Shown here: positions 8,496 to 35,743 of the stretch, piece by piece
Layout: the number at the start of each line of letters is the position of its first letter
Numbering within the stretch: the first letter of the stretch is position 1
Assembly: GCA_016742055.1 (NCBI GenBank)
Contig: JACVCK010000007.1
Coordinates: 1 to 35,773, forward strand
Length of the DNA stretch: 35,773 nt
Direction: 5' to 3'
Source: Phycisphaerales bacterium
GTDB lineage: Bacteria > Planctomycetota > Phycisphaerae > Phycisphaerales > UBA1924
Position numbers and translations under genes: made by a program
Notes under the pieces: model-generated
Database searches by the model: none
What the model saw: only the letters and a program-made list of their open reading frames with translations
Told to the model about the DNA's origin: nothing

Positions 8496-9392
8496 CTATC
8501 GCCGGGGCCGGCCCCGCTTGGACGGGCTCGGCGAGCGGTACCGGGAGATGAGCAGCGACTTGCCCGGCGAAGCGGACGACTCGAACGGACGCAGGCGGCG
8601 GAGGTCCTTCTGCAGTTCGGCCGCGCTCTCGCCCCGCTCGATCAGAGGCCGCAGCGACGAGAGCGACATGTGCGAGCACACGCCTGAATAGATCGACCAG
8701 TTCAGCAGCGGGTTGGCCGACCAGTGGGCCGAGAGCAGCGCGGATCCGTCGTGCGAGAACAGCGCGTGCAGGAACACGCGCCCGTCCGCGACCAGCAGCA
8801 GCCACTGCCCGGGGCCGTTCTCGACGGCCTGCACGCCCCGGGGGTCGGCGACGACCTCGACGCCCCGCAGCGGCGCGGGCTCGAACACCTTGGCCGCGAC
8901 CGGCACGCGCCGCGCCGCCTGCTCAAGGTCGGGCCCCAGTTCCGGCACGAGCGCGGGGCAGATGTTGGTCAGGACGAACGTCCGGGCGCCGGCGATCAAG
9001 GACCGAGCCCTTTCGAGCGCCCCGTCCCGATCGCGCAGGCGGTACAGCAGGTCGTCGGGCTCCTCATCCTCCGCCTCGTCGGCGAGCGCGTCGAGCGCGA
9101 GCGCGTCGTCCTCGAGGCGCCGGCGCAGGCGGGCGATCAGTTCCGCCGGCGGCGCCGCGCGGGCGACGCGGTTGCCCTCCTCCTCGCTCATGTACGCCGC
9201 GCCCTTCTCCTCGAGCGACTCCAGCGCCTTGTAGACCGCGCCCACGGGCCGGCCCAGGGCCTGCGCCACGCGGTATCCGGTGGCGGGCGAGCGCCGGACC
9301 AGGAACGCGTAGACCTCCGCCTCCGCAGAACTCAGCCCCATCCGCTGCAGGGCGGCAAGGGGGTCGTGGGCGATGGCCTCCATATTACTCAT
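8496..9392 (-). CDS. TrmB-family transcriptional regulator
   Basis: A 298-residue DNA-binding protein. The N-terminal winged helix (about 10-75) has the TrmB pattern LQRMGLSSAEAEVYAFLVR followed by GRPVGAVYKALESLEEKG. A helical linker (about 80-115) and a PLD-like effector domain follow, with RARSLIAGARTFVLTNICPA and GVQAVENGPGQWLLLVADGR. The C-terminal 45 residues are basic. The start is uncertain: ATG 9392 or ATG 9383, neither with a clear Shine-Dalgarno. Its regulon is unknown. It is the last chromosomal gene before the prophage. Confidence 0.82.
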   Translation of the reverse strand: MSNMEAIAHDPLAALQRMGLSSAEAEVYAFLVRRSPATGYRVAQALGRPVGAVYKALESLEEKGAAYMSEEEGNRVARAAPPAELIARLRRRLEDDALALDALADEAEDEEPDDLLYRLRDRDGALERARSLIAGARTFVLTNICPALVPELGPDLEQAARRVPVAAKVFEPAPLRGVEVVADPRGVQAVENGPGQWLLLVADGRVFLHALFSHDGSALLSAHWSANPLLNWSIYSGVCSHMSLSSLRPLIERGESAAELQKDLRRLRPFESSASPGKSLLISRYRSPSPSKRGRPRR

Positions 9393-9430
9393 GCGGAGAA
9401 GAATAACCCGGGTTCCGGGCCGGTCAAGCC

Positions 9431-9472
9431 AAAAAAAGGCGCGGGAAGGGCCGACAAGGGCCCCTCCCGCGC
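9431..9472 (-). terminator. Intrinsic terminator, minus strand, at prophage junction
   Basis: Read on the minus strand, GCGCGGGAGGGGCC pairs with GGCCCTTCCCGCGC through a short loop (one G-U wobble) and is followed by CC and seven T residues. It would end transcription entering from the right, yet the next gene on the right is now the prophage. It most likely served a chromosomal gene displaced by the insertion. Confidence 0.8.
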
Positions 9473-9626
9473 GTGACGGGCAGGGGAAGGTTGCAAAACG
9501 GCCTGACCCGGCCTTGTGCGGCCTAAACCGGCCTGGAATCAAGAGTTATGGCGGATTCGACGCGGCGGCGGCATTGCTGCAAAATCGCCACGGCGCGCGC
9601 GATGGGCAGGGAAGTTTGCAAAATCG
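9469..9626. repeat. Candidate prophage left end with transposase-binding repeats
   Basis: A ~32-bp repeat occurs at 9469-9501 and 9595-9626, exactly 126 bp apart. Its shared core is GGGCAGGG(G)AAG followed by [GT]TTGCAAAA. A third partial copy with GCAAAATCG lies at 9579-9587. Mu-type elements carry several transposase-binding sites at each end and usually terminate in 5'-TG; a TG at 9474 starts the first copy. The order terminator, repeats, phage genes fits an attachment end here. The precise boundary and target duplication cannot be fixed without the right end. Confidence 0.55.
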
Positions 9627-9757
9627 AACCGCGATGGCGTGTCGTGAGGGCCGATCAGCGCCTCGTCACGGCGCGCGCCGCGCGCGGAATCGGCCACGGC
9701 GCGCGCGCTTCGCGGGGCGTTTGCCGGGCGGTTGACGGGGCGTTGAACGCGCTTCAT
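9539..9757 (-). CDS. Possible small ORF at phage end (doubtful)
   Basis: A 72-residue frame starts with ATGA overlapping the methyltransferase stop, as other junctions in this operon do. However, it reads through the candidate transposase-binding repeats and is Arg/Pro-rich without domain character. The overlap may simply be a by-product of the duplicated tail repeat. Listed with low confidence. Confidence 0.2.
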   Translation of the reverse strand: MKRVQRPVNRPANAPRSARAVADSARGARRDEALIGPHDTPSRFDFANFPAHRARRGDFAAMPPPRRIRHNS

Positions 9758-9791
9758 CGGCTCGCTCCGGCGCCGGCGTGAGCGCGGAGGG
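9737..9791. repeat. Gene-tail repeat T1, copy 1
   Basis: A 55-bp sequence identical at 54 of 55 positions to 11126-11180. On the minus strand it encodes the last 11 residues of the methyltransferase (LRAHAGAGASR), its stop, and the first codons of the next frame (MKR-QRP). Confidence 0.9.
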
Positions 9792-10644
9792 GGACGCCGG
9801 CGGCCTGGGCGCGGGGCTCGAGGGCGCGGCGCGCGGCGGCGAAGTAGGTCGGGTCGAGTTCGGCGCCGGCGAAGGAGCGGCCGGTGTCGATGCAGGCGGC
9901 GGCGGTGGATCCGGAGCCGAAGAACGGGTCGCAGACGCGGCCGCCCTCGGGCGAGTAGAGACGCACCAGGCGGTCGAGCAGGGCGACGGGTTTCTGTGTC
10001 GGGTGGAAGCGGCCCTTGCCGCTCGGGCGAGGGAACTCCAGGACGTCGATCGGGTAGCGCTCGCCGGTGTTCACGCGGGCGGGGATCGCCCCCGCGGCTC
10101 GCCAGTGACCACCGACACACTCCCCGCGGGCGGACGCCTTGTAGGGCGCGTGGCCGGTGGTCATGACCGGGAAATACCTGGGCATCGTCTCGCCGAGGAC
10201 GAGGATGTCCTCGTGGATGCGCATCGGGCGGCGGCGCGCGTCGAGCCCGCCGGTCGCGCTTCCGATCTTGCGCCAGACGAGTTTGTACCGGAAGCGCTTC
10301 CCGGCGGCGTTCATCACGGCCTGCGTGAACTTGCCGGCGGCGAAGATCAGCACGGCGCCGTCGCGGGCGGTGACGCGGTGCAGTTCGTCGAGCAGCCGTG
10401 CGGCGTCGGGCGCCTTGTCCCACGCGAGGTTGGTGATGCCGAAGGGTGGATCGGTGAGCGTGAGATCGAACGCTGCGTCGGGCTGGGCGGCGAGGAAGTC
10501 CCACGCGTCGCCGCGGTGGAGATCCACGCCGCCGGGCGGGCGCCCATCGCCGTTGGCGCGTGCGCGCACACGGTGCGAGGCGGCGCGGGACCGCCTTGTT
10601 TCGGGGCGTTGGTGCGGGGGGTGGGGGGCCTTGCGGCGGTTCAC
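9754..10644 (-). CDS. Phage DNA methyltransferase, N4/N6 (beta-class order)
   Basis: A 296-residue S-adenosylmethionine-dependent DNA methyltransferase. Catalytic motif IV DPPF is at 65-68 and precedes the target-recognition region. HPTQKP (214-219) and the SAM-binding DPFFGSG (239-245) are at the C-terminal end, giving the beta-class motif order and the N6_N4_Mtase family. No restriction endonuclease is adjacent, so it is a solitary enzyme, probably protecting phage DNA from host restriction. The start is taken as GTG at 10644, preceded by TAAGG; a slightly later start is possible because the first 40 residues are Arg-rich and not conserved-looking. It is the last solid gene of the early operon. 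Confidence 0.9.
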   Translation of the reverse strand: MNRRKAPHPPHQRPETRRSRAASHRVRARANGDGRPPGGVDLHRGDAWDFLAAQPDAAFDLTLTDPPFGITNLAWDKAPDAARLLDELHRVTARDGAVLIFAAGKFTQAVMNAAGKRFRYKLVWRKIGSATGGLDARRRPMRIHEDILVLGETMPRYFPVMTTGHAPYKASARGECVGGHWRAAGAIPARVNTGERYPIDVLEFPRPSGKGRFHPTQKPVALLDRLVRLYSPEGGRVCDPFFGSGSTAAACIDTGRSFAGAELDPTYFAAARRALEPRAQAAGVPLRAHAGAGASR

Positions 10645-11084: not shown

Positions 11085-11146
11085 CGGGATGCTCCGTGGT
11101 GATGATAGCGAGGCGAAGGCGGCGCGGGGCGTTGAGCGCGCTTCAT
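11081..11146 (-). CDS. Possible 21-residue leader/micro-ORF
   Basis: ATG at 11146 overlaps the upstream stop (CGATGA), and its own stop overlaps the ATG at 11084 (CGATGA). The peptide begins MKRAQRP and ends GASR. It could serve translational coupling only. Coding status is uncertain. Confidence 0.3.
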   Translation of the reverse strand: MKRAQRPAPPSPRYHHHGASR

Positions 11147-11180
11147 CGGCTCGCTCCGGCGCCGGCGTGAGCGCGGAGGG
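11126..11180. repeat. Gene-tail repeat T1, copy 2
   Basis: Second copy of the 55-bp T1 repeat (one mismatch to 9737-9791). It again encodes LRAHAGAGASR, a stop and MKR-QRP on the minus strand, here at the end of a 30-codon frame instead of a methyltransferase. Confidence 0.9.
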
Positions 11181-11235
11181 TGATTCCGGCGGCCTTGATC
11201 TGGCGGATCTGGCGGGAGCGGGAAGAGGGATTCAT
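11143..11235 (-). CDS. Possible 30-residue ORF ending in duplicated tail
   Basis: The frame opens with an ATGA overlap to the preceding 101-residue gene and ends in the T1 tail. Its last 18 residues (QIKAAGITLRAHAGAGASR region) resemble the methyltransferase C-terminus (AQAAGVPLRAHAGAGASR). It looks like a transplanted or residual gene end rather than an independent protein. Confidence 0.3.
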   Translation of the reverse strand: MNPSSRSRQIRQIKAAGITLRAHAGAGASR

Positions 11236-11584: not shown

Positions 11585-11809
11585 TCAGCGGGAGACGCGG
11601 GCGCGTTGCTTGTACTTCTTGCGCGGAGCGGCGCGGTGGGCGGCGTCGCGTTCGCTCGCGCGGACTTCGGCGGCCCAGCGGATGCGTTCGCTGCGGGTCA
11701 TGCCCTGCACCATCGAGCGTTGTTCGGGCGCGATGGGACGGTTGAAGCCCGCGGCTTTGGCCGCGGCGGCGGAGGGGAACTCGCGGATCTCGCCGGTGTT
11801 GGTGTTCAT
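11585..11809 (-). CDS. Small hypothetical phage protein, basic
   Basis: A 74-residue protein starting MNTNTGEIREFPSAAAAKAAGF, followed by a helical basic region and a Lys/Arg-rich end (RKKYKQRARVSR). The opening is reminiscent of short phage proteins that begin with a 'GEIREF/I' strand. The ATG overlaps the stop of the DUF1643 gene by ATGA (11806-11809). Possibly a nucleic-acid-binding protein judging by charge; this is inference. Confidence 0.65.
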   Translation of the reverse strand: MNTNTGEIREFPSAAAAKAAGFNRPIAPEQRSMVQGMTRSERIRWAAEVRASERDAAHRAAPRKKYKQRARVSR

Positions 11810-12318
11810 CGAATCTTCTCCGGGATGGGGAACGGGATGAGCGGCGTGTCGCGCCGCAGACGGAGCGGGTGGAGCGGCGCGCCGTTGTTGGCGATGCCAA
11901 AGCACATGGGGACCAGGTGGTACGCGCGGATGCAGTCCAGCATCCATTGCTCCTGCCTCATGGCGAACGGATGAGCGCCCCACGCGACGATCACCGAGGC
12001 GCTGGCGGCGAGCGTGGCGGCGACGTGGCGCAGGTTCTCCGGCCCGACTGGATCGGCGGCGCGGACGAGTTCGCCGGGCCACGTCGATCGCAGCGCGAAA
12101 AGGTTGACCACGTGCATCGAGCCGTGGCCCTCGCGCCTCGCGAAGCCGATGCAGCGCCGGATCGTCGCGTCGTCGGTGAGGCCGTCCGCCGTCGAAGGGT
12201 TTAGCATCACGAACGTCACAGAACTGCCGACGGACCAGCCGCGCGTGAGCGTGTAGCGGTAGAGCCCGCACTCCGAGATCGTGGCGTGGGCGCGGGTGAA
12301 GCAATCGAACGGGTTCAT
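11806..12318 (-). CDS. DUF1643 domain protein
   Basis: A 170-residue protein with the DUF1643 signature: TRGWSVGSSVTFVMLNPSTADGLTDDATIRRC, seen as 'FVMLNPSTAD' (residues about 36-45) and 'DDATIRRCIGFAR', then VVNLFALRSTWP and a conserved IVAWGAHPF segment. The family occurs in phages and bacteria and its biochemical role is not established. The length fits the family. It is coupled by ATGA overlaps to the zinc-ribbon gene upstream and the 74-residue gene downstream. Confidence 0.85.
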   Translation of the reverse strand: MNPFDCFTRAHATISECGLYRYTLTRGWSVGSSVTFVMLNPSTADGLTDDATIRRCIGFARREGHGSMHVVNLFALRSTWPGELVRAADPVGPENLRHVAATLAASASVIVAWGAHPFAMRQEQWMLDCIRAYHLVPMCFGIANNGAPLHPLRLRRDTPLIPFPIPEKIR

Positions 12319-12361
12319 CGGCCCTCCCGGTTCTCGCGGCGCATGAGGGCGATGGCGCGGG
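12315..12361. repeat. Gene-tail repeat T2, copy 1
   Basis: 47 bp identical to 12757-12803. On the minus strand it starts inside RAIALMRRENREGR and ends at the TGA stop of the zinc-ribbon gene. Confidence 0.92.
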
Positions 12362-12737
12362 CGGGAGGGACAACGACGACGCCGCGGTCGCCGTGGGCGT
12401 CGGTCTCGAAGGCGGGCGCGTCGGAGGTGGGGCCGGGTTCCATCAGCGATCGCGTCGCGCCGCATCGGACGCACCGCCACACACCGTCGACCTCCAGCGT
12501 GAACGTCTGGTGCTGACAGGGCCGTGGCGCTGCGGGCTCCTCGTCGGCGTCCGGCTCGTTGCGCACGGCGGGCATATCGGCGGCGGCGATGATGAGGTCG
12601 GCGTCGCGGCGCAGGGCGTCGATGTAGCGCTGGAGCCGGCCATGCTCCCACTGGCTCATCCAGCGGCTGTCCTGGCCCGCGTGGGGAGCGCTGAGGGTGG
12701 CCATCACGATGGCGCGGAGTTGTTCAGGCGTCAGCAT
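12315..12737 (-). CDS. Zinc-ribbon-like phage protein
   Basis: A 140-residue protein. The N-terminal half is helical (LTPEQLRAIVMATL, GRLQRYIDALRRDADLIIAA). Residues 74-97 carry Cys74-x-His76 and Cys89-x2-Cys92, a probable zinc-binding treble. The C-terminal 14 residues (RAIALMRRENREGR) are shared exactly with the adjacent ParB-domain protein through the T2 DNA repeat. ATG 12737 has AAAGGA 6 bases upstream. Function unknown; possibly DNA-binding. Confidence 0.65.
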   Translation of the reverse strand: MLTPEQLRAIVMATLSAPHAGQDSRWMSQWEHGRLQRYIDALRRDADLIIAAADMPAVRNEPDADEEPAAPRPCQHQTFTLEVDGVWRCVRCGATRSLMEPGPTSDAPAFETDAHGDRGVVVVPPARAIALMRRENREGR

Positions 12738-17385: not shown

Positions 17386-18018
17386 TCAATGGCCTCGTGA
17401 AGACCTTTCGAGTTGGCGCCGCACATGCGGCGGGATGCGGAACGACTTGGGCTCGATGTCGCGCACGAGGAACTCGCGGCCGACCCACGCGCGGAGGCCC
17501 TCGGTCACTCGGTAGAGTTGGCCCTCGTCCAGGTCGCCGAGCCATTCCGCTTCGCGGCCGAGCGTGATCGAGGGCGGGTCGTTCCTGGTCTGCCGCGCGA
17601 TGAAGCCGCGCAGGGCCGAGGGCTTGCCGAAGATCTCCGGGATGCGCTCCGCGGCCTCGGCCCAGATCGCCTCGGCGAAGCGCAGCGAGCGGGAGCGTCC
17701 GGCCGCGGCGACGTCGCGCCAGCCCCGGACTCCGTGCTGCACACCCTTCTGATTCGGGAGGGGGAACTTGTCCAGGGCGTGGCGCTCCGCGGCCTGCGCC
17801 TCGGCCAGGGCCATGACGATCTCGAACTGCGCCTGCGTGTTGCGCGGGTGCTTGACGCTGGGCTTGTCCTTCTCGTCGTTCGGGCAGCCGGCGTGGCGCA
17901 TGGCGATGTGGCGCTGGGCGTCGTTCCAGCCGGCGCACGTGGCGGCGCGCAGGAGCATGATCGTCTGGGACTTGCTCCAGGCGGGGAGGGCCCGGGGGGG
18001 CGTGGAGGGGGCGGGCAT
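17386..18018 (-). CDS. Early phage protein, positional analogue of Mu Gp16/GemA
   Basis: A 210-residue protein directly after the B gene, where Mu-like phages encode the Gp16/GemA regulator. It contains SKSQTIMLLRAATCAGWNDA and QRHIAMRHAGC, with KHPRNTQAQFEIVMALAEAQ. These recall the helical DUF1018 pattern, but similarity is not strong enough to name it. The C-terminal half (LYRVTEGLRAWVGREFLVRD, PPHVRRQLERSSRGH) is probably a second small domain. The ATG shares one base with the B stop (TGATG). Confidence 0.6.
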   Translation of the reverse strand: MPAPSTPPRALPAWSKSQTIMLLRAATCAGWNDAQRHIAMRHAGCPNDEKDKPSVKHPRNTQAQFEIVMALAEAQAAERHALDKFPLPNQKGVQHGVRGWRDVAAAGRSRSLRFAEAIWAEAAERIPEIFGKPSALRGFIARQTRNDPPSITLGREAEWLGDLDEGQLYRVTEGLRAWVGREFLVRDIEPKSFRIPPHVRRQLERSSRGH

Positions 18019-19139
18019 CAGGCCACCGCCGCCTTCCGGCGCTGCTCGCGGCGGAGTTGCACGCGCTCGTAGTTGGCCCGGCCCTGGCTGGTCCGCTCGC
18101 AGGACCGCAGGAGTTTCGCGTCGACCCGCTCGCCCTGGGCCACGAGCGAGGCGTTGTAAAGGAGGCCCACCAGCGAGCGGAGACCGCCGGAGCCGGGGAT
18201 GCTCGCGCGGTCGCTGGCGTACTCCGCGCCGTCGCGCGTGAGTCGCACGCGCATGGATTCGGCGACCTTCAGCACGTCGTCCACGGTGAACAGCGGGTCG
18301 CCGTCCTCGGCGGATTCGCCGACGATGTCGTAGCGGTGCAGCAGGAGCGAACTCAGTTGACCGTAGAACTCCGACGCGTCGTCCACCTTCTGCTCGACGT
18401 CGATCGTGCCGCCGATCACCACCCCGCACCCGGACTGCTTATGGACGTCGCGGATCACGTGCAGCGCCCTGACGTTGAGGTAGTGCGCCTCGTCGATCAT
18501 CTGGAGCCGCTTGCTCCCGCGGATCGCGTCGATCAGCCGCATCTCCATCGCGTAGAGCGAGCCGTGCTGCGGCAGGCCCAGGGCCCGGCACCACTGCCGG
18601 GCGAAGTGCATCGGGCCCGAGGCCCCCTCGACGACCTCCACGTGGACGGAGCCGGGGATCAACTCCAGCGCGGCCCGGAAGCACAGCGACTTGCCGACGC
18701 CCGCCGGGCCGTACACCACGCTCATCCAGCGCCGCGCCTGGGTGTCCTTCAGGACGCCGAGGATGCGCTCGGCGACGCGTGTGCGCACGAACCCATCGGG
18801 CAGGCCGGGCCGCTCGCCGCGCGCGTGCTGTTCCAGCCAGTACGCGAGTTTGCGGGCCACCTGGTCGACGTCGCCCTCGTAGCGGCCGTTGCGCCACTGG
18901 CTGATCGTGGAAGTGCCCAGGCCGGTCTGGCGGGCGATGTCGCGGTTGCTCAGATTCGCCTGGCCGGCGCGGGCGTTCACGCGGTCGCGGAGTTCGGCGA
19001 TCTGTTCGGCGGTGGGGGATTGGCCTTTGGCGGGCATCCGTGGCTCCGGTGAGACCCGCGCGTCCTGCGCGAGCGTGTCGATCGGCGACTTGGCGGGCTC
19101 GGGCGTCAGCCGCGGCCCCATCGTGTTCTTTCCGCTCAT
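18018..19139 (-). CDS. MuB-like AAA ATPase, transposition target protein
   Basis: A 373-residue ATP-dependent DNA-binding protein that selects target DNA and activates the MuA-type transposase. The N-terminal HTH (about 60-90: LSNRDIARQTGLGTSTISQW) matches the lambda-repressor-like domain of MuB. Walker A GPAGVGKS is at 144-151 and Walker B LQMIDEAH at 212-219 (Asp216, Glu217). The sensor-1 region VVIGGTID follows. The C-terminal part is basic, as in MuB. The ATG overlaps the transposase stop (19136-19139), the usual A-B order. Confidence 0.92.
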   Translation of the reverse strand: MSGKNTMGPRLTPEPAKSPIDTLAQDARVSPEPRMPAKGQSPTAEQIAELRDRVNARAGQANLSNRDIARQTGLGTSTISQWRNGRYEGDVDQVARKLAYWLEQHARGERPGLPDGFVRTRVAERILGVLKDTQARRWMSVVYGPAGVGKSLCFRAALELIPGSVHVEVVEGASGPMHFARQWCRALGLPQHGSLYAMEMRLIDAIRGSKRLQMIDEAHYLNVRALHVIRDVHKQSGCGVVIGGTIDVEQKVDDASEFYGQLSSLLLHRYDIVGESAEDGDPLFTVDDVLKVAESMRVRLTRDGAEYASDRASIPGSGGLRSLVGLLYNASLVAQGERVDAKLLRSCERTSQGRANYERVQLRREQRRKAAVA

Positions 19140-21562
19140 GACAGGAGATCGAAGACGCTCACGCGCTCCGCCTCCGCCGCCCCGGATGTCTCGTCGTCAA
19201 AGGACGCGAAGGCGCCGCGGTCCATCCGCTCGGCGTCGGCGACGTCGCCGTCCGTCCTCGCGCCGCCGTGCATGAGCGCCAGGCGGTCCACCGCGCTCAG
19301 GCGCTCGGCGTCGTCGATGAACGCCCCCTCCGCGCCCGCGGCCTTGCGCCGTTCGGCGCGCTCGACTCGCTCGGCCTGGCCGTCGAGCGGCGTGCCCACG
19401 ATCCGCAGCGACGGCGAGGGCGCGTCCGCGGGCAGGGCCGCCAGGCCGCGCTGCTCGGCGAGCCGCGCGTTGGTCGCGTCCACGTCCATGCGGCGCTGCT
19501 CGCGCCACGCCAGTTCCGCGGCGGTGCCGGTGAGCGCCGTCATGTTCACGCGCTCGTTCACTCGGCGCGTCGCGGCCCGCTGCTGGGCAAGGCCGCGGCG
19601 GACCGCCTCGGCCGAGGTGCCGGCGCCGAAGCGCTCGTTCGGCTCGATCGTCGCGATGTAGCGCCACTCCTCGTCGTACACGCGGATGCTCGACACATCG
19701 AGTGGGTTGTACGAGACGCGCACCTTGCGCCCGGAGCCCTTGAAGATGTCCAGCGCCGGCTCGCGAGATCCGTACGTGACGGCGCGCCGCCAGGAGTCCA
19801 GCCGGAGGCTCACGCCCACCTTCGACACGCTCAGCGGGCGGGCCCACTCGTGCAGCAGCAGCGCCAGCGCCCCGCGGTCCTTGAGGACGCGGCGTGCGGG
19901 CGTGTGCCGGTCGAGGTACTCGCGCGGGCTGAGCCGCTCGCCCGTGTCGGGGCAGATCAGGTCGTCGATCGCGTGATCGGCGCGCGAGTTGTACCAGAGC
20001 TGCCAATCCTCGAACTTCTTGCGGATCTCGCCGATGGTGGGCAGCGCCATCACGTCGGCCTTGGCCGCGGCGAGGGACTTCGGATCGCGCGTGAAGGGCG
20101 TCGGGGTGGTGGCGCCCTCGGCGCGTGAGCCGCACCATGTGGGCTGCTCGCGGTCGAAGTCGCGGTGCACGAAATCGAAGAACTTCTCGACGCGCGACTT
20201 GCTGTCGGGTCGGTAGGGCTGGCCGAAGTGCGGCTCGATGCCCAGCGCGAGCAGCAAGCCGCTGGCCTCCGTCTCGCCGCCCTCCCATCCGAAGGCGCCG
20301 CCCAGGAACTTCGGGCCCTTGCCCTGGGCGTTGGCGACACGCCACGCGCGGCGCTGGGCGTTGGTTGCGCCGGTGATCGACGCGGACTTGAAGTCCTTGC
20401 CGTTGTCAAGCCACGCGATCTCGGGCGGGCCCCACTGATCGGCGTTCTCGCAGCGATCGAGCGCGGCGTGCAGGGCAAGCCGGATGGTGCGCGAGTTGGG
20501 CGTCTCGTCGATCCACCAGCCGCGGAGGGCGCGCGTGCGCCAGTCCACGATGGAAGTGAGCCATGGGCGTTCGGCGACCCACGTTCCCCCGCGCTGCATG
20601 CGGACGAAGAAGTCGAGCCGGGCGTGGTCGAAGTCCCAGCGCTGGTTCGGCGCCCACGCCTCGGGGTCCTGCTCCAGCGGCGCCATGAACTTCCGCTGGT
20701 ACGCGGTCTTCCCTTCACGCGCCAAGCTCTCGACCGACGGGGCGATCCGCTCGCGGCGGAGCTGCTTGACGCGGGACTCGCCCGGCCAGTTCCAGCCCTC
20801 GCGCATCGCGGCCGCGGCGACGGCGCGCCAGCACTTCTTGATGCTGGGCTTCGTGAGCTGGAGGTACAGCCCTTCAAACATCGCCCACGCCTCGTCGCTC
20901 ACGCCCCCGGCGCTCGGTCCTCCCTTGTGCGCGTCGGTGCGGCCGTCCAGCAGCGAGGCCGCGATCGTGCGGAAGTCCGCCGCGGCCTCGCTCGGCGCGA
21001 GCGCGTGCCAGTTGCGGATGCTGCGCGCCGAGACCGGACCGAACCGGCGCGTGAGATCGGCGAGGAAGTCGGGAAGATCGCGCGACTCGACGACGCCCGG
21101 CTGTCCCCGCCACTTCCGCCAGGCGGTCAGGATCGTCGCGCGGCGTTCGGCGGCTTCGCGCTGCTCGCGCGTCGCCGCGGCGAGGAGGTCGGCGGGCCTG
21201 ACCGGCGAGAGCGCCGACGCCGAGACGCCGAGCGCGAAGCGGGAAGCGTCTTCGCCATGCAACCGACGCGAGTACGCGCGGCGGATGAACCAACTCTCGT
21301 TGCGCTTGCCGGGCGTCCGCTGCTTGCGCGCGAGGCCGCGTCGGTGCAGGTCCGGCGCCTCGCGGCGCAGGTGCCCCGGCGTCACGCCCAGCAGCTCGGC
21401 GGCCTCGTCGATCGGGAGCCAGTCTTCGGAGAGCGGCGTGCGCGGGCGCGCGGGCGTGACGGCGGGCGAAGGAATCGCGGGCGGGCCCCCGGGGGCGCCC
21501 GCGCCACGGTGGTCCGCCAGGCGGAGCGAGTGCGCAGGGGCCGTGGCGCCGAGGGCGGTCAC
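19136..21562 (-). CDS. MuA-like DDE transposase
   Basis: An 808-residue transposase for integration and replicative transposition. Residues 45-100 form the HTH that reads the ends/enhancer (LPIDEAAELLGVTPGHLRRE). Residues 140-300 are further end-binding domains. The RNase-H-like core has D312 (WDFDHARLDF), D386 (LDNGKDF) and E459 (SRVEKFFDF), the DDE triad in rve/Mu context. After 560 comes the beta-barrel (SVSKVGVSLR...VSYNPLDVSSIRVYDEEW) and a charged tail that should contact the B protein. The start is taken as GTG 21562, which overlaps the preceding stop (GTGA); upstream in-frame sequence belongs to other genes. Residues 20-30 translate a GC palindrome. Confidence 0.94.
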   Translation of the reverse strand: MTALGATAPAHSLRLADHRGAGAPGGPPAIPSPAVTPARPRTPLSEDWLPIDEAAELLGVTPGHLRREAPDLHRRGLARKQRTPGKRNESWFIRRAYSRRLHGEDASRFALGVSASALSPVRPADLLAAATREQREAAERRATILTAWRKWRGQPGVVESRDLPDFLADLTRRFGPVSARSIRNWHALAPSEAAADFRTIAASLLDGRTDAHKGGPSAGGVSDEAWAMFEGLYLQLTKPSIKKCWRAVAAAAMREGWNWPGESRVKQLRRERIAPSVESLAREGKTAYQRKFMAPLEQDPEAWAPNQRWDFDHARLDFFVRMQRGGTWVAERPWLTSIVDWRTRALRGWWIDETPNSRTIRLALHAALDRCENADQWGPPEIAWLDNGKDFKSASITGATNAQRRAWRVANAQGKGPKFLGGAFGWEGGETEASGLLLALGIEPHFGQPYRPDSKSRVEKFFDFVHRDFDREQPTWCGSRAEGATTPTPFTRDPKSLAAAKADVMALPTIGEIRKKFEDWQLWYNSRADHAIDDLICPDTGERLSPREYLDRHTPARRVLKDRGALALLLHEWARPLSVSKVGVSLRLDSWRRAVTYGSREPALDIFKGSGRKVRVSYNPLDVSSIRVYDEEWRYIATIEPNERFGAGTSAEAVRRGLAQQRAATRRVNERVNMTALTGTAAELAWREQRRMDVDATNARLAEQRGLAALPADAPSPSLRIVGTPLDGQAERVERAERRKAAGAEGAFIDDAERLSAVDRLALMHGGARTDGDVADAERMDRGAFASFDDETSGAAEAERVSVFDLLS
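21478..21510. repeat. GC palindrome (REP-like) in transposase N-terminus
   Basis: GCGGGCGGGCCCCCGGGGGC followed by GCCCGCGCCACGG. Same family as the copies 90 bp and 1.2 kb away. On the minus strand it encodes GAGAPGGPPA. Confidence 0.6.
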
Positions 21563-21996
21563 GCGGGCGCTCCGATGCGCGCGGGCGGGACGCCCGCGCC
21601 ACGACGGAAAGCGCCCGCCGCGGCCCCCGCGGTCGGAAGTCCGGATTCGTCGGGTCCGGTCTTCGCCGCGCCGGGGGCCGCGACGGGGGGAGGAGAGAGA
21701 GAGGCCGTCTGCGCAGCCCGCGTCAGGTACGGGCTGTGCAGGATGATCCATTCCCGCGCGGTGTGCGCGGGGGACTGTCGCATGCTGATGAGCGACGCGT
21801 GGGTGAGGTCGCCGATCACTCGCCATGCGCGATGAGCGTCGATCCCGCTCAGGTGCGCGAGGTCCGCTACGGCCGCGAGACAGACGCCATCGGGGGAGGC
21901 GTGCCGCTCGATCGCGGTGAGCAGTTTCCGCGCGTCGGCGGTGAGACGCTGATACGTCTCCAGCGAGAAGAAGTGGCGGCCGCCGGTGACGCTCAT
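21559..21996 (-). CDS. Small winged-helix-like early protein
   Basis: A 145-residue protein upstream of the transposase. Residues 1-85 look like a winged helix: FSLETYQRLTADARKLLTAI, VCLAAVADLAHLSGIDAHRA, WRVIGDLTHASLISMRQ. The last 50 residues are low-complexity and include translated GC palindrome (GAGVPPARIGAPA). It probably binds DNA, perhaps as a Ner-like regulator or replication accessory; this is inference. ATGA overlap upstream, GTGA downstream. Confidence 0.65.
   Translation of the reverse strand: MSVTGGRHFFSLETYQRLTADARKLLTAIERHASPDGVCLAAVADLAHLSGIDAHRAWRVIGDLTHASLISMRQSPAHTAREWIILHSPYLTRAAQTASLSPPPVAAPGAAKTGPDESGLPTAGAAAGAFRRGAGVPPARIGAPA
21579..21603. repeat. GC palindrome (REP-like) at end of winged-helix gene
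   Basis: GCGCGGGCGGGACGCCCGCG followed by CCAC: GCGGGCG/CGCCCGC around GGA. It overlaps the 3' end of the coding region just before the transposase start. Confidence 0.65.
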
Positions 21997-28262: not shown

Positions 28263-29047
28263 CCGCCCGCGCCGCCAGGCCCAACCTGCCCGCCATGCCC
28301 GACCTCATGACCGAGCACCAGCGCATGCTGCTGGTGACCCGGGCGGTCGAGGAGGTCCGCGCGGGCGACCACCCCGGCCCCGCGCTGGCCGCGATGTCCA
28401 TCTCCCACGACACCTTCCTCGAGTCGTGCTGGGCGTACATCGCGCTCAACTGGTCGGCCGAGCGGATCGGCGAGGCGGCGGGCGTGATCGCCGCGCCGGA
28501 GCCGGCGGCGAAGAAGAAGGCCGGAGCCCGGGGCAAGGGCGCGGCCGCGCGGGAGGCCTCGAAGAAGGCCAAGGCCACGAACACCACCGCGCTGCGCAAC
28601 TTCAAGCGGGCGCTCGCCACGGTCAAGAACGTCTACCTGAAGATCTACCGCGAAGAGGTGAGCCGCCTGGCCTCGGAGGCGCGCTGCCTGACGCTCACGA
28701 GCGAGCCCGCGGAGACGGCGCGGAACCTGGGCGCGATGCTGGCGGCGCGCCTGCACGGGGCGCTGAACGACCAGAAGTCCTTCGACGCCCTCGACCGCCA
28801 CGAAAAGCACGTCCTGCTCCGCGGCGTCCACCTCCTGATGGAGTCGCCGCGCCTGAGCGCGGACGCCGAACTGCGGGAGGCGAAGAAGGACAAGATCATC
28901 TCCGTGATGGCGGCGCTCGCCGACAAGGCCGGGGACAGGCCCGGCGGCTCGGTGACGCGCGAGGACATCGTCAACTCGTTCGTCGAGGCCGGCCTCGGCA
29001 AGGACATCGCCGAGGCGCTCCGCAAGCGGAAGGCAGGCGCCGCGTGA
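28259..29047 (+). CDS. Candidate small terminase / packaging protein
   Basis: A 262-residue protein directly before the large terminase. The N-terminal part (LMTEHQRMLLVTRAVEEVRA, GPALAAMSISHDTFLESCWA) resembles an HTH DNA-recognition segment. A Lys/Ala-rich linker and helical domain follow (LATVKNVYLKIYREEVSRLA), and the C-terminal end reads DIVNSFVEAGLGKDIAEALR. In Mu the DUF3486 protein occupies this slot, but that signature is not visible, so the call rests on position and the possible HTH. ATGA overlap upstream and GTGA downstream. Confidence 0.5.
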   Translation: MTARAARPNLPAMPDLMTEHQRMLLVTRAVEEVRAGDHPGPALAAMSISHDTFLESCWAYIALNWSAERIGEAAGVIAAPEPAAKKKAGARGKGAAAREASKKAKATNTTALRNFKRALATVKNVYLKIYREEVSRLASEARCLTLTSEPAETARNLGAMLAARLHGALNDQKSFDALDRHEKHVLLRGVHLLMESPRLSADAELREAKKDKIISVMAALADKAGDRPGGSVTREDIVNSFVEAGLGKDIAEALRKRKAGAA

Positions 29048-30540
29048 GCGCCCCCGGAACCGCCCCCGGAACCGCCCCCGGAACCGCCGCTCTGATGACC
29101 GCCGCCGGCGCCGACAGCGCGCTGCTGCTGCCGTACCAGCGGCGCCTGTTCCTGGACAAGAGCCCCATGCGGCTCGTGGACTGGAGCCGCCGCATCGGCA
29201 AGGACTGGACGCTCGCCTGGGAATCCGTCGCGGAGCGGGCCGGCGGCGAGAACGACCGGAACCTGCTGCACACCGCCCACCGCGAGGGCAGCGCCCGCGA
29301 GTTCATCGCCTACGTCAACGAGTTTGCCCACCAACTCGACCTGGTCGCGGCCGACGCGATCGGCGAAGAGATCATCGGCGCGGACAACACGCGGGTGATG
29401 AGCGTGGCGATCCCGATCCCCGGCCGCGCCAAGCCCGCGCGGATCATCTCGCTCTCGGGCAACCCCGACGCGGTCCGCGGCTTCCAGGGCGACGTGATCC
29501 TCAACGAGTTCGCGTTCCGCAAGGACCCCGCGGCGGCGTTCAAGGCCGCGACGCCGCTGCTGCTGTGGGGCGGGCGACTGACGATCCCCAGCACGCACAA
29601 GGGCTCGAAGAATCTCTGGGCTCAGTTCGTGGCGATGGCGCGGCGCCTGGAGGAGGGCGCCCCGCTTCCCACGGACCTGAAGTTCAGCCACCACCGCGTC
29701 ACGCTCCTGGACGCGGTGAACGACGGCCTGGTCGAGCGGATCAACGCCATGACCGGGCAGGACCTGACCCGCGAGCAGTTCATCGCCGACTGCCGGAGCA
29801 AGTGCCGCACCGAGAGCGACTGGCTCGAGGAGTTCTGTTGCACGGCGGGCGCGGACGAGGAGTCGTACTTCCCCTTCGACGCGCTCCGCCAGGTGGTCCA
29901 CCACGACGACCCCAGGCCGTGCGCCAACCTCTCGGCGTTCATGATCGACGTCGCGCGGCGCTGCAAGGCCCTCAGGCCCGACGCGCTCTTCGCCGGCTGC
30001 GACATCGGCCGCGTGAGCGACCTGTTCGTCCTGCGCGCCCGCGCCAAGGTCGGCGGCGTGCTCCGCGTCGTCGGCGCGCTGGCCTTCACCGGCCGGACCT
30101 TCGGCGAGATGGAGGCGTCGATCACCACGCTCATGCGCGCGGAGTTCCAGGTCGCCGACCGCGCCCAGGCCGTGCGCGTGCGGCGCCTGTGCATCGACGC
30201 CAGCGGCCTGGGCATGCAACTGGCCGAGCGGATGACCGAGCGCTTCCGCGGCCGCGTCGAGGGCGTGACGTTCACCGCGGCCGTGAAGGAGGACCTCGCC
30301 ACCGGCGCCCGCCGCAACATCGAGGAGAAGACGGTCACGCTCGAGGACGACGCGCTGACGCTCGGGCACTGGAACGCCATCCGGCGCACGCTCACCGCCG
30401 CGGGCAACGCCCGCTACGACGGCGAGTCCGACACCGGCCACGCGGACATCTTCTGGGCCGACGCCCTGTGCATCCACGCCGCCGAGACGCGCGTCTCCCG
30501 CGCCCGGCCGCTCACGCTCAAGGGGGGTGCGTCATTCTGA
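29044..30540 (+). CDS. Phage terminase large subunit (Mu Gp28-like)
   Basis: A 498-residue packaging motor ATPase-nuclease. Walker A-type SRRIGKDW is at 48-55 (compare 'ARQSGKS' in relatives). The Walker B region is VILNEFAF (151-158), where Asn154 replaces the usual Asp before catalytic Glu155. The motif III region is SGNPDAVRGFQGD. RNase-H-like nuclease acidic residues are Asp320 (AGCDIGR), Asp385 (CIDASGLG) and Asp468/Asp473 (GHADIFWADAL). The start is GTG 29044 with a GTGA overlap. The N-terminus holds a Gly-Thr-Ala-Pro repeat from a 12-bp DNA repeat. Confidence 0.92.
   Translation: MSAPGTAPGTAPGTAALMTAAGADSALLLPYQRRLFLDKSPMRLVDWSRRIGKDWTLAWESVAERAGGENDRNLLHTAHREGSAREFIAYVNEFAHQLDLVAADAIGEEIIGADNTRVMSVAIPIPGRAKPARIISLSGNPDAVRGFQGDVILNEFAFRKDPAAAFKAATPLLLWGGRLTIPSTHKGSKNLWAQFVAMARRLEEGAPLPTDLKFSHHRVTLLDAVNDGLVERINAMTGQDLTREQFIADCRSKCRTESDWLEEFCCTAGADEESYFPFDALRQVVHHDDPRPCANLSAFMIDVARRCKALRPDALFAGCDIGRVSDLFVLRARAKVGGVLRVVGALAFTGRTFGEMEASITTLMRAEFQVADRAQAVRVRRLCIDASGLGMQLAERMTERFRGRVEGVTFTAAVKEDLATGARRNIEEKTVTLEDDALTLGHWNAIRRTLTAAGNARYDGESDTGHADIFWADALCIHAAETRVSRARPLTLKGGASF
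29049..29084 (+). repeat. Three tandem 12-bp repeats in terminase 5' end
   Basis: CGCCCCCGGAAC occurs three times without gaps (29049, 29061, 29073), encoding the GTAP repeat. Copy number could vary by slippage without changing frame. Confidence 0.85.
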
Positions 30541-32141
30541 CCCTCGCGAGCCACTCGCCGTTTTCCGGCGCCGGGGACCCCGGCTACGCCGGCGGGCCCG
30601 CGTGGGCCGCCGGCGAGGAGGCGCTCGCCGCCGCGCGGCGCCGCCGCCGCGTGGGCCGCCTCATGGAGCGCCTGTACCGCGGCGAGTGGTTCGAGGCGCT
30701 CGTGTGCGACCGGCGGACGCAGCACCTGTTCCGCCACATGGAGCGCCACGGCGGCAGGATCGCCCCGCTCCTCGAGAAACTCAACATCTTCCGCCTGGCC
30801 GTGAACATGCACGCGGACATCACCGGCCTGAACCCGGTGACGCTGGACGTGCCCGGAGAGTTCGAGGCGCAGTGGGAGCGCCTGCGCGCCATCCGCGCCG
30901 CCTCGCTCTTCGACGCCGCGTTCCACGAGGCGCTCAAGTGCGCCTCGCTTTACGGCGCGGCGCCCTTCCGCGTCGATCGCGCCCCTGGAAGTTCCGGCGG
31001 AGGCGCGGTCGTGACGCTCGACGATCCCGCGGAGACGTTCGCCCTGGGCGAGGACGGGCCCGACGGCCAGCCCACCGTGTGGGAGCGGCGCTGGACCGTG
31101 CGCCGCGAGGACGCCGCGGCCCGCCGCGTGCGCACGTGCCTGCGCGTGCAGCGCCACCGCGTGTCCGGCACGGGCGGCGTGGTCGAGGAGGAGGCGTACG
31201 CGGTGGACGGCGGCGGCTGCGACCTGCTGGCGGACCTGCGGCGCCTGCGGCGTGTGGCCCTGGCCGAGGCGCTGGGGACCAACATGCCCGCGGGCCTGCG
31301 CGATTCGACGCCCACGGGCGTGCCCTTCCCTTTGCTGGTGCGGATCGCCAACTCCACCTGGCGCGGCGAGCCCGAGGCGCGGCTGCCCGAGGCGGAGATC
31401 GACCTCATCGACCAGACCGCCGCCTCGCTCTCGCAGGTGGCCCGCGCCATGGCCCAGCACGCCGCGCCCAAACTCCGCTGGCCCGAGCGCCTGGTCGGCG
31501 AGGACGGCGTGATCGACGCGACGATCGAGGCGTTCGCCGACCCGGACAAGGAGGCCGAGTACATCGAGGTGAAGTTCGCCTTCGAGCCGATGCTGCGGTT
31601 CCTCGACCGCGCGCTGCAGAACCTGGCGACGGCGATGGAGATCACCCCCGCGCTCCTGGGCGTGGAGGTGCAGTCCGGCCAGGCCGCCGACTCCTACCGC
31701 AAACTCGCGCTCAAGGCCACGCAGACGCTCGCGGCCGCGCGCCGCGGCGTCCTGACGATCAAGCCCGCGCTCGAGCGCCTGTGGACGATCGCCAGCGCCG
31801 TGGACTCGGCGTCGGGCCTGACCGTGGGCGGCTACGACGTGGCGCCGGTCGAGGTGATCCTGCGGCCCGAGATCCCGCGCGAGCGCATCGACGCGGTCGA
31901 AGAGCAGGAGGCCATGCTCCGCGCCGGCCTGACCAGCCGCTTCCGCGCCATCGCCGAACTGCACGGCGAGGACCAGGCCGAGGTCATCCTCGCCGAGATC
32001 GAGGCCGAGGAAGGGCGAGCCGCGCAGCGCCAGCAGACCGCGCTGTTCGGCGCCGCGTTCGGCGACCCCCGGAACCCGGAGCCCAGCGGGACGGTCGTCC
32101 CGCCCGCCGACAACGCCCCCGACGCAGGAGCGGCCGCATGA
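30537..32141 (+). CDS. Portal protein (SPP1 Gp6-like), apparent CTG start
   Basis: A 534-residue portal that forms the DNA entry ring. Evidence: gene order terminase-portal-minor head, portal-like length, NIFRLAVNMHADITGLNPVT near the N-terminus, and FAFEPMLRFLDRALQNLATA with ALLGVEVQSGQAADSYRKLA, the conserved portal helix. No ATG or GTG is available at the junction. In frame lie ATT 30534 and CTG 30537; CTG gives a CTGA overlap identical in geometry to the neighbouring ATGA/GTGA junctions, with AAGGGGGGTG 7 bases upstream. The first ATG is at 30663 and would remove 42 residues. Confidence 0.82.
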   Translation: MTLASHSPFSGAGDPGYAGGPAWAAGEEALAAARRRRRVGRLMERLYRGEWFEALVCDRRTQHLFRHMERHGGRIAPLLEKLNIFRLAVNMHADITGLNPVTLDVPGEFEAQWERLRAIRAASLFDAAFHEALKCASLYGAAPFRVDRAPGSSGGGAVVTLDDPAETFALGEDGPDGQPTVWERRWTVRREDAAARRVRTCLRVQRHRVSGTGGVVEEEAYAVDGGGCDLLADLRRLRRVALAEALGTNMPAGLRDSTPTGVPFPLLVRIANSTWRGEPEARLPEAEIDLIDQTAASLSQVARAMAQHAAPKLRWPERLVGEDGVIDATIEAFADPDKEAEYIEVKFAFEPMLRFLDRALQNLATAMEITPALLGVEVQSGQAADSYRKLALKATQTLAAARRGVLTIKPALERLWTIASAVDSASGLTVGGYDVAPVEVILRPEIPRERIDAVEEQEAMLRAGLTSRFRAIAELHGEDQAEVILAEIEAEEGRAAQRQQTALFGAAFGDPRNPEPSGTVVPPADNAPDAGAAA

Positions 32142-33295
32142 AGGCGCTGACGAGCCGGCAACTCGGGTTCGCCGCGCTGGCCGCCGTCGCGCTCCTGGCG
32201 GTCGTGTCGTGCGCGGGAACGATCGCGCACGTCGTGAACGGAGGCGCCCGCTTGGCCAACGACAACCCCCGGAACCCCCGGAATCCCTCCGGCGTCACCG
32301 GCGCGAACCTGCCGCAGGTGGTCAACGGCGCGCCGGTCAGCACGACGCAGGTCCTGGTCGCCCTGTACGGCGACGCGGCGCAGCGGATCAACCACCAACT
32401 CGCCCGCGCCGTCGAGGACATCGCCGGGCGCAGGACGCAGGAGTTCAAGCGGGCCCGCGCCGCGCAACTGCTCCATGACATCGGCCGCACCCAGGCCCGC
32501 CTCGCCGCGCAGTCGGCGCCGGTCGTGCTCGAGGCGAACAAGGCCGCGTACGTCCGCGGCCTCCGGGACGGGATCCGGCAGGCGGAGGAGTTGGGCGTCA
32601 AGGGCGTGGCCGACGCGCTCGGCGCCCGCGCGGGATTCACCGCCGTCGATGAGGGCCCCGTGAACGTCGCCGCCCGCGACACCGCGGCGCGGATCAACGC
32701 CGCCGCGGGCCTGCACGCGCAGGGCGCGGCGTCGGTCTTCCGCTCGCTCAGCGAGGGCGCTCCGGCGGAGCCCGCCGTCAACGCGGCGATCGCTCGCGGC
32801 CTCATCACCGGCGACCCGCGCGTCGCCGACCGCGCGATGCGGGACCTGTACCGCGACCCGAACGCGCCGGAGATCGAAACCTACCGCCGCGTGGGCGCGC
32901 AGCAGATCACCGTGGGCGGCTGGACCGGCCCCGTCCGCGCCTACGTCGCCACCGTCGTGCGCACGCGCACCCGCGAGGCCACCGAGGAGGCCCGCGGCGA
33001 TCGACTGGACGCGCTGGGCCTGGACCTGGTGCAGATCACCGGCCGCGTGAGCGTGAACTTCTGCACGCAGTTCATCGGCCTGGTCCTGAGCCGCAGCGGC
33101 GCCGACCCGGACCACCCCGCGCTCGCCGACCTGCCCGGCGGCGGGCCGCCGTTCCACCCCAACTGCTCGAAGTCCACCGCGGCCTACCTGCCCGGCGCCG
33201 TCGGCGCCGAGCGGGCGGCCGCGGCGAGGAAGGCGGGCGCCGCCTTCGCCGAACTGCCCGCCCACCTGCGCACCGCGCCCCTGAGGGCCACGTGA
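32138..33295 (+). CDS. Minor head / head-morphogenesis protein (SPP1 Gp7 / Mu F-like)
   Basis: A 385-residue protein following the portal. The C-terminal end has GGPPFHPNCSKST (His340-Pro-Asn-Cys343) preceded by VNFCTQFIGLVLS, the Cys/His pattern typical of phage minor head proteins ('HPNCRC'). The centre is helical (FKRARAAQLLHDIGRTQARL). Oddly, the first 25 residues form a good signal-like hydrophobic segment ending VVSC (Cys25), which is not expected for a capsid protein. ATG 32138 overlaps the portal stop (ATGA). Confidence 0.75.
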   Translation: MKALTSRQLGFAALAAVALLAVVSCAGTIAHVVNGGARLANDNPRNPRNPSGVTGANLPQVVNGAPVSTTQVLVALYGDAAQRINHQLARAVEDIAGRRTQEFKRARAAQLLHDIGRTQARLAAQSAPVVLEANKAAYVRGLRDGIRQAEELGVKGVADALGARAGFTAVDEGPVNVAARDTAARINAAAGLHAQGAASVFRSLSEGAPAEPAVNAAIARGLITGDPRVADRAMRDLYRDPNAPEIETYRRVGAQQITVGGWTGPVRAYVATVVRTRTREATEEARGDRLDALGLDLVQITGRVSVNFCTQFIGLVLSRSGADPDHPALADLPGGGPPFHPNCSKSTAAYLPGAVGAERAAAARKAGAAFAELPAHLRTAPLRAT

Positions 33296-34109: not shown

Positions 34110-35249
34110 ATGCTGACGATGACGAGTTTCAACGGGCCGTTCACGCCGGAGATCGCCAACGCGGTCCTGTTCCGGCAGGCGGCGAACTACTGCCCGATCT
34201 ACGCGCTGCTCCAGGCCCGCGGCCTGGCGCGGATGACCGTGGCCGAGAAGTTCGAGTGGTACACCAGCGAGCACCTGGCCCGCTCGACCGCGATCAACAA
34301 CGGCGGCGCGGCGTACGACGCCAACACCACGTCGATCGTGGTCGACGACGGGTCGGTCTTCTTCGACGACTCGCTCATCCTCTTCGAGGCCACGGGCGAG
34401 GTCGGCCTGGTGACCGACGTCAGCGGCAACACGCTGACCGTGGTCCGCGGCATCGGCGCGGTCGTCGCCTCGCACGCGAACTCGGTGGCCAACGACGCGC
34501 CGGTGCGCTGCCTGGGCTCGGCCGCGGGCGAGGCCGCGCCCAGCCCCGTGGGCCGCGAGGTGGACCTCGACGGCCAGTGGAACTACGTGCAGACGTTCCG
34601 CGAGGCCGTCGAACTCTCGGGCCGCAAGACCCGCGTGAAGACCGACACGCAGGACGAGCGCCCGCGGCAGCGCATGGCCGCGTTCCAGCGGCAGATCGCC
34701 AGCATCGAGCACGCGATCATCTTCGGCGCCCGCGGCGCCGTGGCGGGCGCGGAAGGGCGGCGCGTGACCACCACCGGCGGCATCCGCCAGACGGCGCTGA
34801 GCAACCGCGTGACCGGCGCCGGCGCCATCAGCCGCGATGACTTCAACGACCTGGTGCGCCCGATCTTCGAGGCCTACCCCGGCGACAAGGTCGCGTTCTG
34901 CGGCTCGGTCGCCGTCAACGCGCTCAACGCCCTGTGGCACAACGCCATCACCGTCGTGCCCACCACCACGCTCGTGGGCCTGGACGTGCGGCGCATCCTC
35001 ACGCCGTACGGCGCGGTGGACCTCATCCACCACCACCTGCTCAAGGGCGCGTACGCCGGCGACATCCTCGCGCTGGACCCGAGCCAGATCGCCTGGCGCT
35101 TCACCGACGGCGGCCAACTCCAGATCCTGCCCGACACGCAGGCGCAGGGCGACGACGCCAAGCGCGACGAGGTGTTCGCCGAGGGCGGCTTCGAGGCCGG
35201 CGACGAGGTCGCGCACGCCGTGATCGAGGGCGTGACCGGCATCAAGTGA
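34110..35249 (+). CDS. Major capsid protein (DUF5309 / SU10-like)
   Basis: A 379-residue capsid protein. EKFEWYTSEHLARSTAINNG near residue 45-65, TGEVGLVTDVSGNTLTVVRG and QTFREAVELSGRKTRVKTDT match the DUF5309/SU10-type HK97-fold capsid pattern. Later AEGGFEAGDEVAHAVIEGVT ends the protein. Length is typical. AGGAGG lies upstream of ATG 34110, strong as expected for a major structural protein. This capsid type differs from the Mu head protein T, pointing to a mosaic origin of the head module. Confidence 0.85.
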   Translation: MLTMTSFNGPFTPEIANAVLFRQAANYCPIYALLQARGLARMTVAEKFEWYTSEHLARSTAINNGGAAYDANTTSIVVDDGSVFFDDSLILFEATGEVGLVTDVSGNTLTVVRGIGAVVASHANSVANDAPVRCLGSAAGEAAPSPVGREVDLDGQWNYVQTFREAVELSGRKTRVKTDTQDERPRQRMAAFQRQIASIEHAIIFGARGAVAGAEGRRVTTTGGIRQTALSNRVTGAGAISRDDFNDLVRPIFEAYPGDKVAFCGSVAVNALNALWHNAITVVPTTTLVGLDVRRILTPYGAVDLIHHHLLKGAYAGDILALDPSQIAWRFTDGGQLQILPDTQAQGDDAKRDEVFAEGGFEAGDEVAHAVIEGVTGIK

Positions 35250-35359: not shown

Positions 35360-35743
35360 ATGACCGTCCACGCCGAGTTCCGCAGCATCTACCCACGCCA
35401 CCGCATGCGCGTCGGCGGCGGGTTCATCTCGTTCGAGCGCGGCCGCTACGCCGCGACCAGCGAGCGCGAGGCCGCCGCCATCCGCGCCAGTTCCGAGGCG
35501 CGGTCCGGCGTCGTCGTCGAGCTGACGATGGCCGAGACGCCCGCGCCCCCGCCCCCCGGGCGCCGGGCGGGCCCCGCCCGCGGGGCGCCCCCGCCCCCGC
35601 CCTGCCGTGCACCACCCCCCCCCCCCCCCCCCCCCCCCCAGGGGCCCCTGCCGATGCCGCCACCGAGGACACCGAACCGCCACGCCGGCCCGGGCCGTCC
35701 CGCCGCGTGCACGCCAGGCCGGGCCCGAGGATCCCGCCGGTGA
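35360..35743 (+). CDS. Proline-rich head-associated protein, interrupted by C tract
   Basis: A small protein after the capsid gene, where head-completion or decoration proteins lie. The first 55 residues look normal (TVHAEFRSIYPRHRMRVGGG, FISFERGRYAATSEREAAAI). Then a Pro-rich run leads into 25 C residues. Downstream in the annotated frame the sequence is Arg/Pro-rich and ends at 35743. One frame over it reads ADAATEDTEPPRRPG, which looks more like a natural continuation, so the frame may break in the C tract. A GTG at 35740 (VTLLLFVGGLA) could start the next gene by GTGA overlap. Confidence 0.5.
   Translation: MTVHAEFRSIYPRHRMRVGGGFISFERGRYAATSEREAAAIRASSEARSGVVVELTMAETPAPPPPGRRAGPARGAPPPPPCRAPPPPPPPPPQGPLPMPPPRTPNRHAGPGRPAACTPGRARGSRR
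35615..35639 (+). repeat. Homopolymer of 25 C
   Basis: An uninterrupted 25-base C run inside a coding region. It is either a sequencing/assembly error or a slippage-prone tract. Confidence 0.9.

Follow-up and report, generated by a model that had tools for sequence, protein, structure and literature searches.

Mu-type transposable phages (saltoviruses) are elements of about 36-39 kb in total, which duplicate 5 bp of target DNA in the case of Mu and 6 bp in the case of B3. Every Mu- or B3-like end described to date is said to terminate in the conserved dinucleotides TG...CA, except for a Leptospira prophage with TA ends (PMC8705779). Here we describe a Phycisphaerales metagenome-assembled genome (2.59 Mb, fragmented into 268 contigs and ~70% complete) in which one whole contig, C36 (hereafter the window; 35,773 nucleotides, 72% GC), comprises host DNA up to position 9471 and, from 9472 onward, what is very probably a Mu-type transposable prophage, beginning with its left end (the early-operon side). 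In common with Mu (Muvirus mu, NC_000929), this prophage possesses MuA and MuB, three predicted L sites, the first at the same distance from the tip, a close pair of predicted R sites, and a 5-bp duplication. It differs from Mu in its likely left tip (CG vs. TG), its site sequence (GGAAGNTTGCAAAA), its SU10-type capsid, and the opposite directions of its early and head operons; the further L sites of Mu lie at +105 and +145, and its R pair is 22 bp apart. Transposable prophages of Leptospira similarly occur outside the usual hosts and depart from TG-CA ends, but the one described combines a 6-bp duplication with TA direct-repeat ends, compared to 5 bp and, apparently, CG in the window prophage (PMC8705779).

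Prophage genes and the left host flank

The early operon of the prophage reads leftward and includes a MuA-type DDE transposase adjoining a MuB-type ATPase, with a DNA methyltransferase as its final gene. The head and packaging genes, encoding a terminase, a minor head protein and an SU10-type capsid protein, read rightward within the same element (Table 1). From alignment, the MuA-like transposase retains the acidic residues D400, D474 and E547. Even the best Mu-like phage records share only 21-28% identity with it, and the alignment comprised 80 distant loci (IMG/VR contigs L130-L209) at ~22-33% identity, indicating that the group to which this MuA belongs has a wide distribution in metagenomes. 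Searching viral contigs with MuB, and with one element-side ORF from the predicted right end (contig C256, see below), yielded no close relative. C36 terminates inside the prophage; the assembled element amounts to 26.3 kb in the window and 3.3 kb on C256, with the middle missing; two relatives measure 34.9 and 38.8 kb. Also identified in the early region were a DUF1643 protein (11806-12651, minus strand; E 2e-37) and a 65-bp block present twice at 94% identity (9736-9800 and 11125-11189), which adjoins the end of the methyltransferase gene. Near the contig end, just inside the head operon, positions 35537-35660 consist of G and C only, with a long poly-C run, and are probably low-quality assembly.

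To the left, the prophage is flanked by a host gene for a TrmB-family regulator, 57% identical to the TrmB of a relative (G065) and followed in both genomes by the same NHL/phytase-like downstream gene. The promoter-like site of the TrmB gene is intact and lies outside the prophage.

Table 1. Positions of host, junction and prophage features (window coordinates unless a contig is named).
Feature	Position	Strand	Basis or remark
TrmB-family regulator, host	8496..9392	-	Pfam TrmB E 2.7e-15; left flank of prophage
Promoter-like site for TrmB, TTGACC-16-TATTCT	9400..9427	-	consensus scan; 0.0 expected in shuffles
Host intrinsic terminator, 14-bp stem then 7 T	9439..9472	-	folding z = -4.85
Target site duplication CCGCG (5 bp), left copy	9467..9471	+	right copy adjoins the C256 tip
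Likely left tip, 5'-CGTG	9472..9475	+	aligned with right end, tips of three relatives, and Mu
Predicted transposase site L1, GGAAGGTTGCAAAA	9485..9498	+	repeat comparison, motif search, end alignment
Weaker predicted site L2, core CTGCAAAA (9578-9585)	9571..9585	+	10/15 matches to L1, at +86
Predicted transposase site L3, GGAAGTTTGCAAAAT	9610..9624	+	13/15 matches to L1, at +125
DNA methyltransferase, prophage	9754..10644	-	PF01555 E 1.8e-25; phrog_67 E 2.3e-56
MuB-like ATPase	18018..19139	-	phrog_296 DNA transposition protein E 1.2e-46
MuA-like transposase	19136..21826	-	phrog_310 E 1.5e-73
Terminase large subunit	28426..30540	+	phrog_5909 E 1.9e-23
Minor head protein	30527..33295	+	phrog_4611 E 1.3e-16
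Major capsid protein, SU10 type	34110..35249	+	PF17236 E 5.4e-35
OsmC-family gene, host	C256, ends 2671		reads toward prophage tip; TetR gene behind it

Predicted transposase sites and the two ends

The initial annotation of this region reported two ~32-bp repeats exactly 126 bp apart together with a partial copy. Both repeats exist, comprising an outer pair (9468-9485 and 9594-9611; 89% alike over 18 bp) at a spacing of 126 bp and an inner pair (9484-9498 and 9609-9623; 93% alike over 15 bp) at 125 bp, the difference being due to one extra G in the left copy; the partial copy was also recovered, though it is weaker. The A/T-rich core TTGCAAAA occurs at only two places in the window, one in each repeat (0.12 expected), and the two-part motif is unique to this spot in the 2.59-Mb assembly. 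By analogy with relatives and with Mu, the repeats would correspond to MuA-binding sites L1, L2 and L3, and their proposed role as candidate transposase-binding sites gained support from inverted copies at the other junction and from a layout common to relatives and Mu. Conversely, the reading of 126 bp as 12 helical turns fails, because the L1-L3 spacing varies, being 125 bp here, 130, 156 and 156 bp in three relatives, and 145 bp in Mu.

The right end was sought by scanning the assembly for GGAAGNTTGCAAAA; allowing at most two mismatches, this returned both known sites and six others. A candidate R1 site (GGAACGTTGCAAAA; C256:2745-2758) is located on contig C256 at a host/element junction, between the OsmC-family gene and ~3.3 kb of unrelated ORFs, none of which matched a phage family. 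It is inverted and agrees with L1 at 13 of 14 bases, and is accompanied ~22 bp inward by a weak second site, R2 (7/15 matches). The element is thus bounded by inverted multiple sites, L1-L2-L3 at one end and R1-R2 at the other, of which L2 and R2 are weak. An alignment on the first site gives CGTGACGGGCAGGGGAAGGTTGCAAAA for the left end (window 9472) and CGTAGCGGCCAGCGGAACGTTGCAAAA for the right (C256 2732), the C256 tip reading CGTAGC. Given that C256 was chosen by its R1 motif, the independent tests are the tip and the duplication only. Outside both tips lies CCGCG, a short duplication of the kind anticipated just left of the tip, which matches at all five positions; only 1 of 27 offsets gives such a match, and it falls at the aligned tip (chance 0.0025 per offset). 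In a ranking of ~3,900 x 10,000 candidate tip pairs between the window and six G000 contigs, C36:9472 / C256:2732 scored 56.9, compared to 34.1 for the best pair with other sites at both ends. This ranking weighted matches by base rarity and used no R2 score, and was adopted after an unweighted version failed: in that first blind search of the window for end pairs, GC-rich matches swamped the result and the pair above was missed. Based on end sequence and the duplication, C36 and C256 would therefore flank one insertion, the middle of the prophage being unassembled.

Fragmentation of the assembly leaves room for another explanation, namely that C256 represents the right end of a second, different Mu-like element and that CCGCG matches by chance. 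We consider this highly improbable, since the assembly possesses only one MuA, one MuB and one L-type end, and the 5/5 duplication coincides exactly with the aligned tips. The other close motif match, on contig C5, was itself considered as a right end, but it sits between host genes and lacks both a second site and a duplication. We also examined C99, which carries the G000 copy of an M20 peptidase, as the other flank, as the gene upstream of TrmB in G065 encodes an M20 peptidase; it showed no sites and no junction.

With C36 and C256 taken as flanks of a single insertion, the position of the tips can be specified. A left end near 9474, beginning with TG, had been proposed; a left end is indeed found here, but its tip is more likely C9472 (5'-CGTGACGG). 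Because the two junctions have exactly CCGCG in common, taking TG at 9474 as the tip would eliminate the duplication, and its partner at the right end would then be TA. A 5-bp duplication, as in Mu, instead gives CG...CG tips rather than TG...CA, so that the right end, although it carries the expected inverted copies and short duplication, does not end in CA. CG was also obtained in the relative G039, where the junctions have 7 bp in common (GCCGCCG) and a 5-bp reading makes both tips alike; two further relatives, G137 and G044, have TG. In both the window prophage and G039, we therefore regard the CG tip as likely.

A terminator at the insertion point

The minus-strand terminator adjoining the left end was examined in relation to the insertion. 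The outer part of the 5' arm of its hairpin consists of CCGCG, such that 13 of the 14 stem pairs are older than the insertion; the remaining, outermost pair alone makes use of the first base of the element. On C36 itself, the nearest minus-strand gene upstream of the terminator is the prophage methyltransferase, ~280 bp away (9754). On C256, the OsmC-family gene has no other terminator-like site between 2500 and 3300. Given the duplication inside the stem and an OsmC gene without a terminator-like site of its own, the terminator appears to be host DNA, and it most likely served the OsmC gene originally. Removal of the prophage restores, on the minus strand, the order OsmC stop, ~60 bp, hairpin with seven T, and TrmB. 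The earlier suggestion of a terminator orphaned from its host gene is consequently borne out. The accompanying suggestion of an insertion just downstream of that terminator needs correction: the element most probably lies between the OsmC gene and the terminator, not beyond it. We looked for this exact site without the insertion and did not find one; OsmC and TrmB are not neighbours in G065. We also considered terminators as preferred targets, but such a preference is not supported, as host terminators are absent from the junctions of the G137 and G044 insertions.

Alternatively, the terminator might be the phage's own, ending the leftward early operon, with the true prophage end between 9393 and 9438. 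It does read in the early-operon direction, shortly past the last early gene. However, duplication and tip alignment place the end at 9472, with 13/14 stem pairs outside the element, and a tip at or before 9438 would put L1 ~45 bp or more away, whereas the remaining termini in the comparison have a distance of ~11-15 bp; a phage origin is accordingly highly improbable.

For a host terminator and an end at 9472, we propose that MuA would bind L1, L2 and L3 at the left and R1 and R2 at the right, and would join the 3' ends of the element to target strands cleaved with a 5-bp stagger at the base of the hairpin between the OsmC-family and TrmB genes, after which repair would leave CCGCG on both sides. 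With the target at the hairpin base, the terminator would remain next to TrmB, and the OsmC gene would come to lie beyond the opposite end of the element. Pointing outward, the captured terminator could then stop early-operon transcripts before trmB, and OsmC transcripts may run into the right end of the prophage. Insertion would thus split a gene from its terminator, leaving the latter facing out of the prophage.

Relatives and evolution of the ends

Comparison with other prophages revealed both shared and divergent features of the ends. A 34.9-kb prophage in a Phycisphaerales relative (G039:C49) encodes homologues of MuA, MuB, the terminase and the capsid protein, arranged as a mirror image, its MuA being 34% identical. 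Its ends, CGTAACCGGACCAGCGAAGTGTCG and CGTAGCACGCGGACCGAAATGTCG, have tips reading CGTA and a duplication, GCCGC; its further L sites lie at +86 and +130 and its R pair is 20 bp apart. This element therefore resembles the window prophage in its likely CG tips, 5-bp duplication and L spacing (86/130), and differs in site sequence (CGAARTGTCG), R-pair spacing and insertion site. Its two host flanks are contiguous in a congener, G043 (75% identity), a natural empty site which confirms the G039 insertion, the junction bases being too diverged to give the exact point. A second element, in G137, is 38.8 kb long with tips TGTA and duplication ACCCT. Blind end searches ranked the G039 ends first in G039 and the G137 element first in G137, such that both ends and an exact 5-bp duplication are available for two relatives; in G181 and G056, element ends were not recognised in the end search. 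A further 14.6-kb element (G044:C11 111780-126382) has tips TGTA and encodes MuA, MuB and a fragment of a terminase. Its duplication is imperfect, GCGAG being shifted by 2 bp at one of the ends, and the element is perhaps a deleted prophage or remnant. Just inside the right end, G039:C49 (~21007-21042) and G044:C11 (~111829-111855) each possess a G/C-rich hairpin followed by 5 T and reading inward, which could shield the prophage from host transcription.

The site sequences themselves differ, with GAAGGTTGCAAAA here, GAAATGTCGCAA in G039, GAAATGGCAA in G137 and GAAGTACGAAAA in Mu. As judged from these alignments, the predicted end layout (tip-to-first-site distance, three L sites and an R pair) is conserved while site sequence drifts. 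We give almost no credence to the idea that these are ordinary intergenic repeats, arising by chance or serving as operators and having nothing to do with transposition: weak repeats are abundant in GC-rich DNA, but these A/T-rich cores are unique in a 72% GC contig, inverted copies occur at the other junction, and the layout is kept in unrelated insertions.

We favour, with some reservation, a scenario in which a planctomycete Mu-like clade changed its terminal base pair from TG-CA to CG-CG, keeping the Mu site layout and 5-bp cut. If so, the 3' base that is joined to the target would be G instead of A, implying a matching change in end recognition by MuA. Should the CG tips be right, they would break with the TG-CA rule of this transposase class, and the TG relatives allow comparison. 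Taken together, these findings show that the Mu end layout outlasts almost complete loss of sequence similarity, and they make available, for Mu-type phages of the Phycisphaerales, experimentally usable end sequences and an exact insertion scar.
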